The notes under the pieces were generated by a model that was not told the DNA's origin, made no database searches, and saw nothing but the letters and a program-made list of their open reading frames with translations. This document shows, piece after piece, positions 20,165-45,818 of a stretch of DNA of 64,000 nt (position 1 is its first letter; every line of letters starts with the position of its first letter). Made by a program: the position numbers and the translations under genes. Origin of the DNA: Emticicia sp. C21 (GTDB lineage Bacteria; Bacteroidota; Bacteroidia; Cytophagales; Spirosomataceae). The stretch covers positions 186,279 to 250,278 of the forward strand of contig NZ_QVMT01000005.1 in assembly GCF_003418935.1 (NCBI RefSeq), given 5' to 3'.

Positions 20165-20168
20165 AAAC

Positions 20169-20206
20169 AAAAAGGGCTTTCAGATTTCGCTGAAAGCCCT
20201 TTTTGT
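20169..20206. terminator. Bidirectional rho-independent terminator
   Basis: A 12-bp stem (GGGCTTTCAG with CTGAAAGCCC, extended by A:T pairs) has A residues on one side and T residues on the other. It separates the convergent amidohydrolase and glycosyltransferase genes. Confidence 0.88.
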
Positions 20207-20207
20207 T

Positions 20208-20942
20208 TTATTTCTTCTTATAATCTCCACGAGAGAAATGTTTCTCAATCCAGCAGTACATCAGAATAAAGAAGTATCTGCTACCCATTTCTTTAATCTT
20301 CAACTTTGATTCGCCGTATTTGCGGTTTGTCCAGCTGTTGGGTACTACGGCAAAGGTATATCCTCTTACCATCGCTTTCAGTGGAAGTTCAACGGTTAAA
20401 TTGAAGTGGGGAGATAAAAAAGGCTTGATGCCCTCAATGGTTTCTCTTTTATATAGTTTAAAAGCATTCGTAGTATCATTGTATTTGATACCCATCATGT
20501 TTTTAATAATAAAGTTTGCAATGCGGTTAATGAATTTCTTTAATGGCGGGTAATCAATCACTTTCCCTCCTTTTACCCAACGACTACCAAATACGGCATC
20601 CACATTCTCGCTGAGCATGGTTTTGTAGTATTTAACTAAATCTTCCGGGTCGTCAGACATATCGGCCATAAATACCGCTACACAATCGCCAGAGAATCGC
20701 TCTAGGCCATAACGAACAGCATAGCCAAAGCCATTAGGTCCTTTATTGGTTTCAAAAACTAAGGTCGGAATCTCTCTCGAAAGTTCGTGCAACACATTCA
20801 GCGTCTGGTCTTTTGAATTATCGTTCGTTACCCAGATTTCGTGCGGAATATCGTATTTTTTGAGCGTAGCATATAAAGTGCGAAGAGTTTCAGGAATACT
20901 TTCTTGTTCGTTATAAGCAGGAATAACAACGCTTAGTTTCAT
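20208..20942 (-). CDS. Family 2 glycosyltransferase, polyprenyl-phosphate sugar synthase type
   Basis: 244 residues from ATG 20942, where MKLSVVIPAYNEQESIPETL is the canonical GT2 N-terminus. The GT-A fold shows TNDNSKDQT (nucleotide binding) and an acidic metal site, FMADMSDDP (Asp94 and neighbours). Sequence such as GPNGFGYAVRYGLE and TTNAFKLYKRE resembles dolichol-/undecaprenyl-phosphate mannosyl- or glucosyltransferases. No C-terminal membrane helices, like DPM1. Likely supplies lipid-linked sugar for glycan assembly or protein O-glycosylation. Single gene. Confidence 0.88.
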   Translation of the reverse strand: MKLSVVIPAYNEQESIPETLRTLYATLKKYDIPHEIWVTNDNSKDQTLNVLHELSREIPTLVFETNKGPNGFGYAVRYGLERFSGDCVAVFMADMSDDPEDLVKYYKTMLSENVDAVFGSRWVKGGKVIDYPPLKKFINRIANFIIKNMMGIKYNDTTNAFKLYKRETIEGIKPFLSPHFNLTVELPLKAMVRGYTFAVVPNSWTNRKYGESKLKIKEMGSRYFFILMYCWIEKHFSRGDYKKK

Positions 20943-28481: not shown

Positions 28482-29525
28482 ATGACTGACCGTCGCCATT
28501 TTCTCAATACTACTTTATTAGCAAGCTTGGGCTTGACTAATATGAATTTTGCATTCAGAGATACGAAAGCTAAAACCCTGAAACCTACTGCCCTGAAAAA
28601 AGGTGATACGATTGGTTTGGTTTGCCCCGCTTATTCAGCTTTTGTGAAAGAAGATGTACAGATAACCATCGAAAGTCTGGAAGTACTTGGATTTAAAGTG
28701 AAAAAGGGCGACCATATATTTGATAGATATGGGTATCTGGCAGGTAGTGACGAAGACCGTGCAGCTGATATTAACAAAATGTTTGCCGATAAAAGCATTA
28801 ATGGCATCATGGCTATGCACGGCGGCTGGGGTTGTGCAAGAATATTACCACTTTTAGATTATAAAACCATTCAACAGAACCCAAAGGTTTTTATTGGCTA
28901 TAGTGATATTACAGCCTTGTTGTTGGGTATTTTTGCTAAAGCAGGTCTTGTTACCTTTCATGGCCCGGTAGGTTCATCTACATGGAATAATTTCTCAGTT
29001 GAAAACTTCAGGAATATGCTAATAGAAGGTAGTATTGTACAGATGAACAATCCGACCAAGAAAGGAGACAATCTAGTGCAAGTTGACGACAGAATTTATA
29101 CGATTAATGGAGGAAAAGCTACTGGTCGATTAATTGGGGGTAACCTCACTGTATTAAGCCATATTGTAGGCTCCCCTTATGTACCTGATTTTAAAGGTAA
29201 TATTCTGTTTTTAGAAGATGTAGGCGAAGATATTTACCGTATCGACCGGATGATTACCCAATTGAAAATTGCCGGCTTATTGAGTCAACTTTCAGGTTTC
29301 GTATTCGGTAAATGTACTGATTGTCCGCCATCAAAAGGCGGCTATGGCTCATTGACAATGGAAGATATTTTTGAAGATCATATCAAGCCTTTAAAAATAC
29401 CATCCTTTTCAGGTGCAATGATAGGGCATATTAAAGATAAATTTACTGTTCCGGTTGGCTTGGAAGCTACCATTGATGCTGGGGTTGGAAGTATTACATT
29501 GAGTGAGGCAGCGGTTAATAAATGA
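28482..29525 (+). CDS. LD-carboxypeptidase (peptidase family S66)
   Basis: 347 residues. The N-terminus RRHFLNTTLLASLG (4-17) looks like a Tat or Sec signal, so the enzyme is exported. The S66 triad is visible: Ser141 in IGYSDIT, Glu245 in FLEDVGED, His316 in IGHIKD. Nucleophile-elbow context GGWGCARILPLLDY also matches. S66 enzymes remove the terminal D-Ala from muramoyl tetrapeptides during peptidoglycan recycling (LdcA-type), although exported members may act on the sacculus or on microcin-like peptides. Convergent with the haem-binding gene across a palindromic repeat. Confidence 0.9.
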   Translation: MTDRRHFLNTTLLASLGLTNMNFAFRDTKAKTLKPTALKKGDTIGLVCPAYSAFVKEDVQITIESLEVLGFKVKKGDHIFDRYGYLAGSDEDRAADINKMFADKSINGIMAMHGGWGCARILPLLDYKTIQQNPKVFIGYSDITALLLGIFAKAGLVTFHGPVGSSTWNNFSVENFRNMLIEGSIVQMNNPTKKGDNLVQVDDRIYTINGGKATGRLIGGNLTVLSHIVGSPYVPDFKGNILFLEDVGEDIYRIDRMITQLKIAGLLSQLSGFVFGKCTDCPPSKGGYGSLTMEDIFEDHIKPLKIPSFSGAMIGHIKDKFTVPVGLEATIDAGVGSITLSEAAVNK

Positions 29526-29539
29526 TTCAAAAGTATATT

Positions 29540-29653
29540 TTGCCACAATGTACACGATTAAAAGCATAGGGACACCTAGTCAATGTTACATAATAGGCTT
29601 GCTTCATTAAATTGTGTAACATTGACTGGGCGCCCTTGTGTACATTGTGGCAA
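29540..29653. repeat. Palindromic intergenic repeat, copy 1
   Basis: A 114-bp inverted-repeat element. Outer arms TTGCCACAATGTACAC (29540-29555) and its exact complement (29638-29653) pair over 16 bp. Inner arms AGTCAATGTTACA (29578-29590) and complement (29615-29627) pair over 13 bp, with partly paired AGGG/CCCT between. It fills the gap between two convergent genes, so it may also act as a terminator. A diverged copy is at 45734-45818. MITE-like or REPIN-like in form; no flanking target-site duplication was obvious. Confidence 0.85.
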
Positions 29654-29671
29654 TTTTATTTATATGCGATT

Positions 29672-30181
29672 TTAATTAGCAGGGGATGGGGTTCTTCTCT
29701 TAAGCACCAAACTATCAGCCGGATAACTGGCTTTTAATGTATCCATTTGTGCCTTCGCCCAATCAATAATAGCTTTTCTTTCTTCATCGCTTAGATTAGC
29801 TTCCTTATGCATACCCAGATAAGTATAAGATGGTAAAGGCATTTCCTTATCCTCAATCATCTCTATGATTTCTTCAAATTTATGGTTCTGAATGGCAATC
29901 GGAAGCAAGGTAAAGGTAGAAAAATTAAGGTGGTATTTGCCACCGTTTACATGAGCATTCAACCAGCTAGCCTCAGGTTGTATCTCCGAATACCATGGAT
30001 AGGTAGTTTTATTACTGTGGCAATCATTACAAGCCACTTCTAATAAATGATTGACATTAGCTGGAATGGTATATTTAGTAGAAATATCATGCGTTTTATC
30101 ATTCGATTCATTTTTTTCCGGGCGAATAAATTGCATGAGTATCAGAACGATACCGAGCCCTAATAGGGTTTTCTTTTTCAT
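29672..30181 (-). CDS. Exported haem-binding-domain protein
   Basis: 169 residues. An N-terminal hydrophobic helix (5-18) acts as signal anchor. A single c-type haem motif, CNDCH (51-55), sits in a domain resembling the Haem_bd family of Bacteroidota; conserved neighbours include YPWYSEIQP and MPLPSYTYLG. Probably a periplasmic electron carrier or haem sensor. Monocistronic. Confidence 0.85.
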   Translation of the reverse strand: MKKKTLLGLGIVLILMQFIRPEKNESNDKTHDISTKYTIPANVNHLLEVACNDCHSNKTTYPWYSEIQPEASWLNAHVNGGKYHLNFSTFTLLPIAIQNHKFEEIIEMIEDKEMPLPSYTYLGMHKEANLSDEERKAIIDWAKAQMDTLKASYPADSLVLKRRTPSPAN

Positions 30182-30314
30182 AATGGTAATAGATTAGTGT
30201 TTGGAATATTTCTGCAATCAATAGATAGGGGTATTCATGTATAAATATAAGATTTGCGAGTGATAACTAATGTTTAGTAAGAAATTTTGTTTTTAAACCC
30301 TTTAATATAAAATT

Positions 30315-30348
30315 AAAAACCCTTTCAAGTCTTCTTGAAAGGGTTTTT
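30315..30348. terminator. Bidirectional rho-independent terminator
   Basis: AAAAACCCTTTCAAG pairs with CTTGAAAGGGTTTTT around a short loop. It ends the M14 peptidase gene on the minus strand. Confidence 0.85.
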
Positions 30349-30367
30349 ACTGATACCTCAATACTGA

Positions 30368-32899: not shown

Positions 32900-32951
32900 G
32901 AAAAATGGGGTAGTTTATTTAGCAATTAAGCACTTTTCTGCCTAAAAATAC

Positions 32952-32978
32952 AAAAAGCCTCTGACACAGAGGCTTTTT
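32952..32978. terminator. Rho-independent terminator
   Basis: GCCTCTG/CAGAGGC stem with a 3-nt loop flanked by A and T tracts. It fits the end of the DksA-like gene on the minus strand, about 105 bp past its stop. Confidence 0.75.
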
Positions 32979-33084
32979 GTATAGACAAAGAATCTACAAA
33001 CCTTAAAAATGCGGTTCAAAGAGTGTAGTTAACACCTTTTCTCTTCTATTTTAAGGAATCTATTTAATAAGGTGGTCGAAAGAA

Positions 33085-33785: not shown

Positions 33786-35063
33786 ATGAATTACATAGAA
33801 CCGGCTCCGATAAAGGATACAGAAAATCCTTTGGAGTCTATGATGTCGAGGTTTGATGCAGCTGTGAAGATTTTAGGGATAAGCGAAGAAATGTATTATA
33901 TCCTGAAAGTACCTGCACGTCAAGTAACTGTTGGATTGCCTGTGACAATGGATAACGGGCAAATAAAGGTTTTTGAGGGATATAGAGTAATTCACTCAAC
34001 TATCCTGGGGCCAAGTAAAGGGGGAATTCGTTTTGACCCTGCTGTGAATATTGATGAAGTGCGCGCTCTGGCCGCATGGATGACCTGGAAGTGTGCGGTA
34101 GTAGATATACCTTACGGCGGAGCAAAAGGCGGAATTGCCTGCAACCCACGTGAAATGTCTGCTGGTGAAATGGAGCGTTTGATGCGTGCCTATACTTTAT
34201 CGATGCTAGATATATTTGGTCCGGATAAGGATATTCCGGCACCGGATATGGGTACAGGCCCTCGTGAAATGGCCTGGTTGATGGACGAATACTCAAAGGC
34301 AAAAGGCATGACTGTAAACGCTGTTGTTACTGGAAAACCTCTGGTTTTAGGCGGTTCACTGGGAAGAACTGAGGCAACGGGGCGTGGTGTAATGGTTTCA
34401 GCCCTTTCTGGTATGGAAAAATTGCGTTTGAATCCGTACAGAACAACTGCTGCCGTGCAGGGCTTTGGTAATGTGGGTTCTTATGCGGCGCAATTGCTTC
34501 AAGAAAAAGGGGTAACTATTTGTGGTATCAGCGATATATCCGGAGCTTATTATAATGCTAAGGGTATTGATATTGAAAAAGCTATTGCTTACCGAAATGC
34601 AAATAGAGGTAGCCTGGAAGGCTTCAAGGAGGCAGAACTGATAAGTAATGAAGAGTTATTAGCGCTGAATGTGGATGTATTAGTGCCGGCAGCGAAAGAA
34701 GACGTGATTACGCATGATAATGCCGCTAACATCCAGGCAAAATTAATTGTAGAGGGTGCCAATGGCCCGACTTCTGCCAGTGCAGATGATATTATCAACG
34801 AAAAAGGAATCATGGTTGTGCCTGATATTTTAGCCAATGCAGGTGGCGTAACCGTTTCTTATTTTGAATGGGTACAAAACCGTATCGGTTATAAATGGGC
34901 GTTGGATAGAATCAATCGTCGTTGCGACCGTATGATGAAAGATGCCTTTGATAAAGTATTTGAAACATCACAGAAACACAAGGTATCTATGCGTCTGGCA
35001 GCTTATATTGTGGCAATTGATAAGGTGGCCAGTACCTATAAGTTCCGTGGTGGTTATGGTTGA
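33786..35063 (+). CDS. Glutamate dehydrogenase (Glu/Leu/Phe/Val dehydrogenase family)
   Basis: 425 residues, hexameric-type GDH length. Substrate-binding GPSKGGIRFDP (75-85), catalytic lysine Lys114 in YGGAKGGI, and the nucleotide-binding GFGNVGS (226-232). PAPDMGTGPREMAW matches glutamate dehydrogenases of the Gdh/RocG group. It interconverts glutamate and 2-oxoglutarate plus ammonia, linking nitrogen and carbon metabolism. NAD or NADP preference not decidable by eye. Monocistronic. Confidence 0.93.
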   Translation: MNYIEPAPIKDTENPLESMMSRFDAAVKILGISEEMYYILKVPARQVTVGLPVTMDNGQIKVFEGYRVIHSTILGPSKGGIRFDPAVNIDEVRALAAWMTWKCAVVDIPYGGAKGGIACNPREMSAGEMERLMRAYTLSMLDIFGPDKDIPAPDMGTGPREMAWLMDEYSKAKGMTVNAVVTGKPLVLGGSLGRTEATGRGVMVSALSGMEKLRLNPYRTTAAVQGFGNVGSYAAQLLQEKGVTICGISDISGAYYNAKGIDIEKAIAYRNANRGSLEGFKEAELISNEELLALNVDVLVPAAKEDVITHDNAANIQAKLIVEGANGPTSASADDIINEKGIMVVPDILANAGGVTVSYFEWVQNRIGYKWALDRINRRCDRMMKDAFDKVFETSQKHKVSMRLAAYIVAIDKVASTYKFRGGYG

Positions 35064-35653: not shown

Positions 35654-35695
35654 AAAAAATAAGCCTTGGCGAATTTCGTCAAGGCTTATTTTTTT
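35654..35695. terminator. Bidirectional rho-independent terminator
   Basis: AATAAGCCTTG pairs with CAAGGCTTATT; A residues on one flank, seven T on the other. It separates convergent ndk and the Gfo/Idh gene. Confidence 0.88.
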
Positions 35696-45733: not shown

Positions 45734-45818
45734 TTGCCACAATGTACACCAAGGTACGATGTTACACAATTGGCTCTAATAGTGTAACCTTGTGTTTCTC
45801 TTGTTTACATCGTGGCAA
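45734..45818. repeat. Palindromic intergenic repeat, copy 2
   Basis: The left arm TTGCCACAATGTACAC (45734-45749) is identical to copy 1 at 29540. The right arm (45803-45818) matches the complement with two mismatches. The inner GTTACAC/GTGTAAC pairing is preserved but the intervening sequence is shorter and has diverged from copy 1 (85 versus 114 bp). It lies between manC and a lipoprotein gene. Confidence 0.8.

Follow-up and report, generated by a model that had tools for sequence, protein, structure and literature searches.

The palindrome at positions 29540-29653 of a 64,000-nucleotide stretch of the Emticicia sp. C21 genome (hereafter the window) is very probably a pair of inverted arms without an open reading frame (ORF), belonging to a repeat family, here family A, that also frames a gene encoding a GxxExxY nuclease. 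The repeat unit is the single arm and not the palindrome, a point missed by the preliminary description. Taken as a whole, we read the palindrome tentatively as a non-autonomous copy, lacking the ORF, of a nuclease element carried on a hairpin; at this place it may also act as a two-way terminator. We rate this reading somewhat short of an even chance.

The palindrome lies outside rRNA, between two protein-coding genes (Table 1). Checking of the sequence confirmed the architecture described earlier: the outer inverted repeat of 16 bp (29540-29555 and 29638-29653) and the inner one of 13 bp (AGTCAATGTTACA and TGTAACATTGACT at 29578-29590 and 29615-29627) are both perfect, and the margins to the flanking stops are indeed 14 and 18 bp. 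The linker of the left arm is a long variant and ends with GGGACACCTAGT. The long hairpin claimed for either strand is borne out by RNA folding, which beats shuffled sequences on the forward strand (minimum free energy -62 kcal/mol, z -11.6, as good in 0 of 200 shuffles) and on the reverse strand (-54, z -8.7). A search of Rfam returned three matches at E values up to 1, all far below the gathering score. Elsewhere in the window, ordinary short perfect or near-perfect hairpins, unlike the arms, are found at 20165-20208, 30314-30349, 32948-32982 and 35654-35694; these are likely terminators.

Table 1. Positions of the palindromes, arms and neighbouring genes in the window, states of the leuB-upstream junction in the genus, and loci with inserts in their arms.
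Feature	Position or site	Strand	Remarks
ORF-less inward pair of family-A arms	29540..29653	.	114 bp
Left arm	29540..29594	+	outer block 29540-29555; 25-nt linker; inner block 29581-29594
Right arm	29611..29653	-	inner block 29611-29624; 13-nt linker; outer block 29638-29653
LD-carboxypeptidase gene (Peptidase_S66)	28482..29525	+	upstream of palindrome; stop 14 bp before it
Haem-binding domain protein gene	29672..30181	-	convergent; stop (29672) 18 bp from palindrome
Second family-A inward pair	45734..45818	.	orthologous place: present in G008, absent in G001 and G002
Family-B arms (AACCACGGAGTTTCAC) and another GxxExxY gene	leuB junction, 5/10 genomes		own genome included
Family-A arms and the G002 GxxExxY gene	leuB junction, 1/10
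S23 four-helix-bundle gene in CACAAAG arms	leuB junction, 2/10		one with internal stop
Arms without gene	leuB junction, 1/10
No recognisable element	leuB junction, 1/10
Modular inserts in arms	L291, L335, L340, L344		GGGGACGCCCAGTC (family A) or GCGACCGACGCTCGG-like (family B)

Each arm follows the plan TTGCCACWATGTACAC, a linker of 7-25 nt and CRATGTTWCACWAT, is about 37-55 bp long and is CAC-phased: among 113 distinct arms of the loci read, CAC spacing is 9 or 10 bases in 192 of 272 successive intervals. Certain arms, the present copy included, have a longer linker that contains GGGGACGCCCAGTC or a relative of it. Twenty regions were read in each of the genomes G001, G002 and G008 (about half of the G008 sites), with locus L056 of G002 in addition. 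Across four genomes 78 clusters were recorded, all of them extragenic, namely 25 inward pairs (two carrying an extra arm), 8 outward pairs and 45 singles, the arm pair around the G002 gene being entered as two singles. The flanking genes are co-directional at 48 clusters, convergent at 25 and divergent at 5. Arms of one element were compared with arms of different elements in 26 inward pairs, four others being left out since one arm failed the filter. Arms of the same element are no more alike, either in the linkers (0.534 within vs 0.522 between elements, p 0.27) or in the conserved blocks (0.845 vs 0.855, p 0.97). It is therefore the sequence and not the pairing that is conserved, and the palindrome results from two inverted copies of a conserved sequence; selection on pairing between arms was rejected on this comparison. 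Exceptions with identical linkers in both arms are the gene-bearing G002 copy and L006.

Copies of the arm are found throughout the genome. The outer 16-mer with at most two mismatches has 43 matches in the whole 6.64-Mb genome of the strain itself (G000) against 0 for the reversed-pattern control, so the possibility raised earlier, that the window's two copies are the only ones, fails. At up to three mismatches the count is largely noise, because 89 matches stand against 34 in the control. The earlier suggestion of a dispersed extragenic repeat of the MITE or REPIN kind is upheld by these genome-wide copies between genes. The second copy in the window, also noted before, is real and folds at z -4.2; a further match to the 16-mer at 35001-35016, with three mismatches, may be due to chance. 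Within the genus the 16-mer is abundant in four of eleven members (G000 43, G001 19, G002 28, G008 53), and the remaining seven have 1 or 2 matches each, near the control. By the identity of one neighbouring protein, 84-90% among the four arm-rich genomes vs 72-74% in the others, the arm-rich genomes are the four closest relatives, and family A is therefore clade-specific. Outside the genus, the top counts are 10 (G011) and 9 (G021). Spread via phages or plasmids was rejected, as none of 50,697 phage records and 8 of 72,556 plasmid records have a match.

Orthologous sites reveal turnover. In G001 the two genes that flank 29540-29653 are 42 bp apart and the element is absent, and in G008 and G002 the orthologous gap contains another gene and, by inspection, ordinary hairpins. 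At the site of the second copy, the element is found in G008, and the gap between the genes measures 8 bp in G001 and 9 bp in G002. A conserved terminator of one gene pair, considered in the preliminary description, is excluded, because the G001 pair lacks the element and copies adjoin many different genes.

One copy of family A bears a gene. At L056 of G002, arms at 1202-1241 and 1635-1674 enclose an intact ORF (1246-1641), located between leuB and a gene that we call cimA-like because its best NCBIfam match is citramalate synthase. The ORF encodes a GxxExxY nuclease of the PD-(D/E)XK superfamily (TIGR04256, E 7e-40; PF13366, E 5e-39), and the whole copy folds as a single long stem with the ORF in the loop (z -7.6). 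No gene-bearing family-A copy was found in G000, G001 or G008. The sole PF13366 gene of G000 sits in family-B arms, and the mover is therefore only putative for the genome in which the palindrome was found. Comparison of the leuB-upstream junction (L241-L250) in the ten genus genomes with a LeuB match shows a hotspot with differing arm families, differing genes (GxxExxY, S23) or bare arms (Table 1). More S23 genes adjoin LeuD-like starts in G009 and G010.

Gene-less palindromes of family B are present in 11 of 13 regions read in the own genome and 6 of 6 in G008, the regions being drawn from 21 and 32 pattern matches, respectively; in the own genome they occur alongside a gene-bearing family-B copy. 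In some genus members the family-B counts are near the control (G006, 3 vs 1; G009, 9 vs 8). GCGACCGACGCTCGG-like modules lie inside family-B arms, the GGGGACGCCCAGTC module is repeated three times in tandem inside a family-A arm at L291, and a third, TTCCATTGYGGCAA-like module forms a tandem array at the edge of L003 and also occurs within arms of L030, L061 and L275. A second, larger palindromic family is built from octamer units (AATCACTCATTCACT) and has, with at most one mismatch, 268 matches in G000 vs 8 in the control; counts are 66 in G001, 104 in G002 and 122 in G008. Loci of this octamer family include L024, L138 and L284, with an S23 gene inside the arms at L138. In the window, 6194-6208 matches the 15-mer of the octamer family with one mismatch, possibly by chance.

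The GxxExxY protein keeps the catalytic residues and, judged from a predicted structure, the nuclease fold. The AlphaFold model (pLDDT 93.7) has Cas4 SSO0001 as its best structural match (Z 9.3, 98 residues, rmsd 3.2) and matches Hjc resolvases at Z 6.9, short of the value of 8 under which the tool advises caution; the match to the Cas4 profile is weak (E 0.003). Foldseek returned nothing at E 0.001 or below (best 0.013), and a search by sequence found no solved GxxExxY structure (best E 0.24). Across 40 sequences, residues D75, K87 and Q99 never vary and E85 hardly does. Among five family-B orthologues dN/dS is 0.05-0.16, with some dS values saturated, and the gene is therefore under purifying selection. 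The TIGR04256 and PF13366 entries give no function beyond the nuclease superfamily. The likeness of GxxExxY to Cas4 is illustrated by one published locus in the available text of PMC8934634.

A scan of GTDB genomes confirmed at least 566 GxxExxY relatives. The best 80 of these at least 566 are mostly from metagenome-assembled genomes (MAGs) and belong to Bacteroidota, Planctomycetota, several proteobacterial classes, Acidobacteria, Chloroflexi, Cyanobacteria, Verrucomicrobia and Spirochaetota, with one archaeal bin. Flanks were tested at 78 of the best 80 loci, each with 100 bases on both sides. Inverted flanks above the 99% shuffle score are present at 58 of the 78 loci vs 5 of 108 ORFs taken as controls on the same contigs, 20 loci being without significant inverted flanks; at least two CRCNNAG units on each side in mirror orientation are found at 49 of the 78 loci vs none of the 108 controls. 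Against swapped partners, 31 of the 78 loci exceed the 99% point of the null even though this null is contaminated, because the CRCNNAG motif is common to unrelated loci. Within the genus a fixed-score test was passed by 13 of 17 GxxExxY loci (of 28), 15 of 24 S23 loci (of 30 fetched from 41 matches) and none of nine controls, which comprise only 6 and 3 ORFs, and a few loci may be in the wrong frame. The nearest relatives of the G002 protein among the best 80 of at least 566 have CACNAAG-type arms, and a Nostoc locus has CGCAAAG arms. The motif of family A is CACAATG, not CRCNNAG; in our own reading of the motifs, a CAC skeleton appears to be common to both kinds of arm.

Arms could also be a host device, that is, tags behind genes which end transcription, protect mRNA or serve as binding sites for a nucleoid or regulatory protein, with the ORFs as passengers in neutral hairpins. 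Several observations agree with this: a gene start on both sides is seen at just 5 of the 78 clusters; of 29 single arms lying between co-directional genes, 21 have the inner end facing the upstream stop (p 0.024; with the arm pair around the G002 gene left out, 20 of 27, p 0.019); the orthologous gap of the siblings has ordinary hairpins by inspection; and in nine arm-bearing gaps common to two sisters by flanking orthologues, the arms align in seven. The palindrome itself combines a strong stem with UUUUAUUUAU after the stem on the forward strand, and a consensus terminator scan, covering loops of 3-8 only, makes no call there; a terminator role in the convergent gap seems plausible. A host device is nevertheless unlikely in our view, as the arms are restricted to four of the eleven genomes of the genus, one arm family has taken the place of another at a single site, and the arm-arm pairing that a terminator needs is not selected.

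The dinucleotides on the two sides of an inward pair are the same at 18 of 30 pairs vs 9.3 expected (reached in 0 of 3000 permutations, with 12 combinations of offset and length tried), which hints at a target duplication. Of the flanking duplications that the earlier description proposed to count, this 2-bp excess is thus an uncertain sign, and longer ones were rejected: a 4-bp match occurs in 3 of 30 pairs (p 0.036) and other lengths show no excess. A 2-bp duplication would fit a MITE whose DDE transposase is absent, has been lost or escaped recognition, a reading that we nonetheless judge to be quite improbable: the matching dinucleotides are AA/AA or TT/TT, with one TA/TA, and lie in flanks very rich in A and T, no arm pair surrounds a transposase among the sites read, where the family search was for Y1_Tnp only, and singles, at 45 of 78 clusters, are the commonest form, unlike a MITE. 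It is very improbable that the palindrome is a REPIN, in which a RAYT (Y1 HUH transposase) mobilises an inverted pair of REPs, even though inward pairs, outward pairs and singles, all intergenic, are what REPINs would give and the own genome has five Y1_Tnp genes (L031-L035, IS200/RAYT-type). Apart from one match with four mismatches beside L031, no arm lies within 1.5 kb of these five genes; the RAYT partner envisaged earlier is thus unlinked in the own genome, and a RAYT origin was rejected. The REP-like palindromic core did not materialise either, with 0 of 8 arms folding below z -2 vs shuffles (range -1.4 to +1.5), and the GTAG/CGTC tag, as given in the available text of PMC3733652, was not seen by inspection.

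For the hairpin-borne nuclease element, we count the dispersal of the arms, the G002 gene within them, the exchange at the leuB site, the breadth of inverted flanks, gene-less family-B palindromes beside a gene-bearing copy, conservation of sequence over pairing, the kept nuclease residues and dN/dS. Against it we count the three genomes G000, G001 and G008 without a gene-bearing family-A copy, an arm type that follows protein similarity only loosely, the family-A motif that departs from CRCNNAG, no observed jump, the loci without significant inverted flanks and the prevalence of MAGs among the best 80. That the GxxExxY nuclease moves the arms, a proposal modelled on RAYT and REPIN, is, from this analysis, possible but doubtful. 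The nuclease would recognise the arms by sequence, perhaps when extruded as a hairpin or cruciform, and cut there; repair or copying would then spread or swap arms at other intergenic hairpins. Gene-less copies would multiply in trans and settle behind genes, and a copy such as 29540-29653 could double as a two-way terminator.

These loci might, although this is less likely than not, represent a broad and so far undescribed class of selfish bacterial and archaeal elements. In such a class, a Cas4/Hjc-like GxxExxY gene would lie inside a DNA hairpin with arms built of CAC-phased tandem units, which the nuclease would recognise; the nuclease would drive arm copying into other intergenic hairpins and so give rise to swarms of ORF-less palindromes, as a nuclease-based counterpart of RAYT/REPIN with S23 genes as alternative cargo. 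If true, the S23 cargo would link the 23S rRNA intervening sequences (IVS), long a puzzle, to the same biology. In the literature searched, which included few subscription papers, no paper described dispersed hairpins around GxxExxY or S23 genes and PDDEXK_3 was not mentioned. The element class may be new; its components resemble REPIN and IVS. GxxExxY genes usually found inside inverted arms of short repeats give this family a testable role, and arms spreading without the gene would account for one kind of intergenic palindrome. Should S23 elements behave in the same way, it would also become possible to test where rRNA intervening sequences come from.

Several known systems share features with family A. 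Cyanobacterial small dispersed repeats, compared by description only, are likewise very small and dispersed and possibly mobile, but have no linked gene as described in the available text of PMC2884548. MITEs are also small, non-coding and dispersed with inverted ends, whereas the arms are mostly solo, have no transposase linked, and show a duplication of at most 2 bp that is uncertain. REP, BIME and REPIN sequences with their RAYT (TnpA-REP) correspond in being short extragenic units in both orientations, as inverted doublets and singlets, and for REP units a mover encoded elsewhere has been proposed in the available text of PMC3116915. The arm differs from them in having no palindromic core and no linked RAYT; the gene that is linked encodes a PD-(D/E)XK nuclease and lies between the arms. 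The G002 inter-arm gene is a clear member of GxxExxY/PDDEXK_3 (TIGR04256, PF13366), the Cas4-like nucleases, but the GxxExxY gene stands outside a CRISPR locus where seen and is framed by inverted repeats. Intervening sequences of 23S rRNA with an S23 ORF, proposed in the available text of PMC4990558 to be transposition remnants or mobile elements, differ in that our arms are intergenic and not in rRNA, the family-A ORF is GxxExxY and many copies are ORF-less; they are alike in that an ORF sits in the loop of a long inverted repeat, and S23 genes stand in similar arms within this genus.
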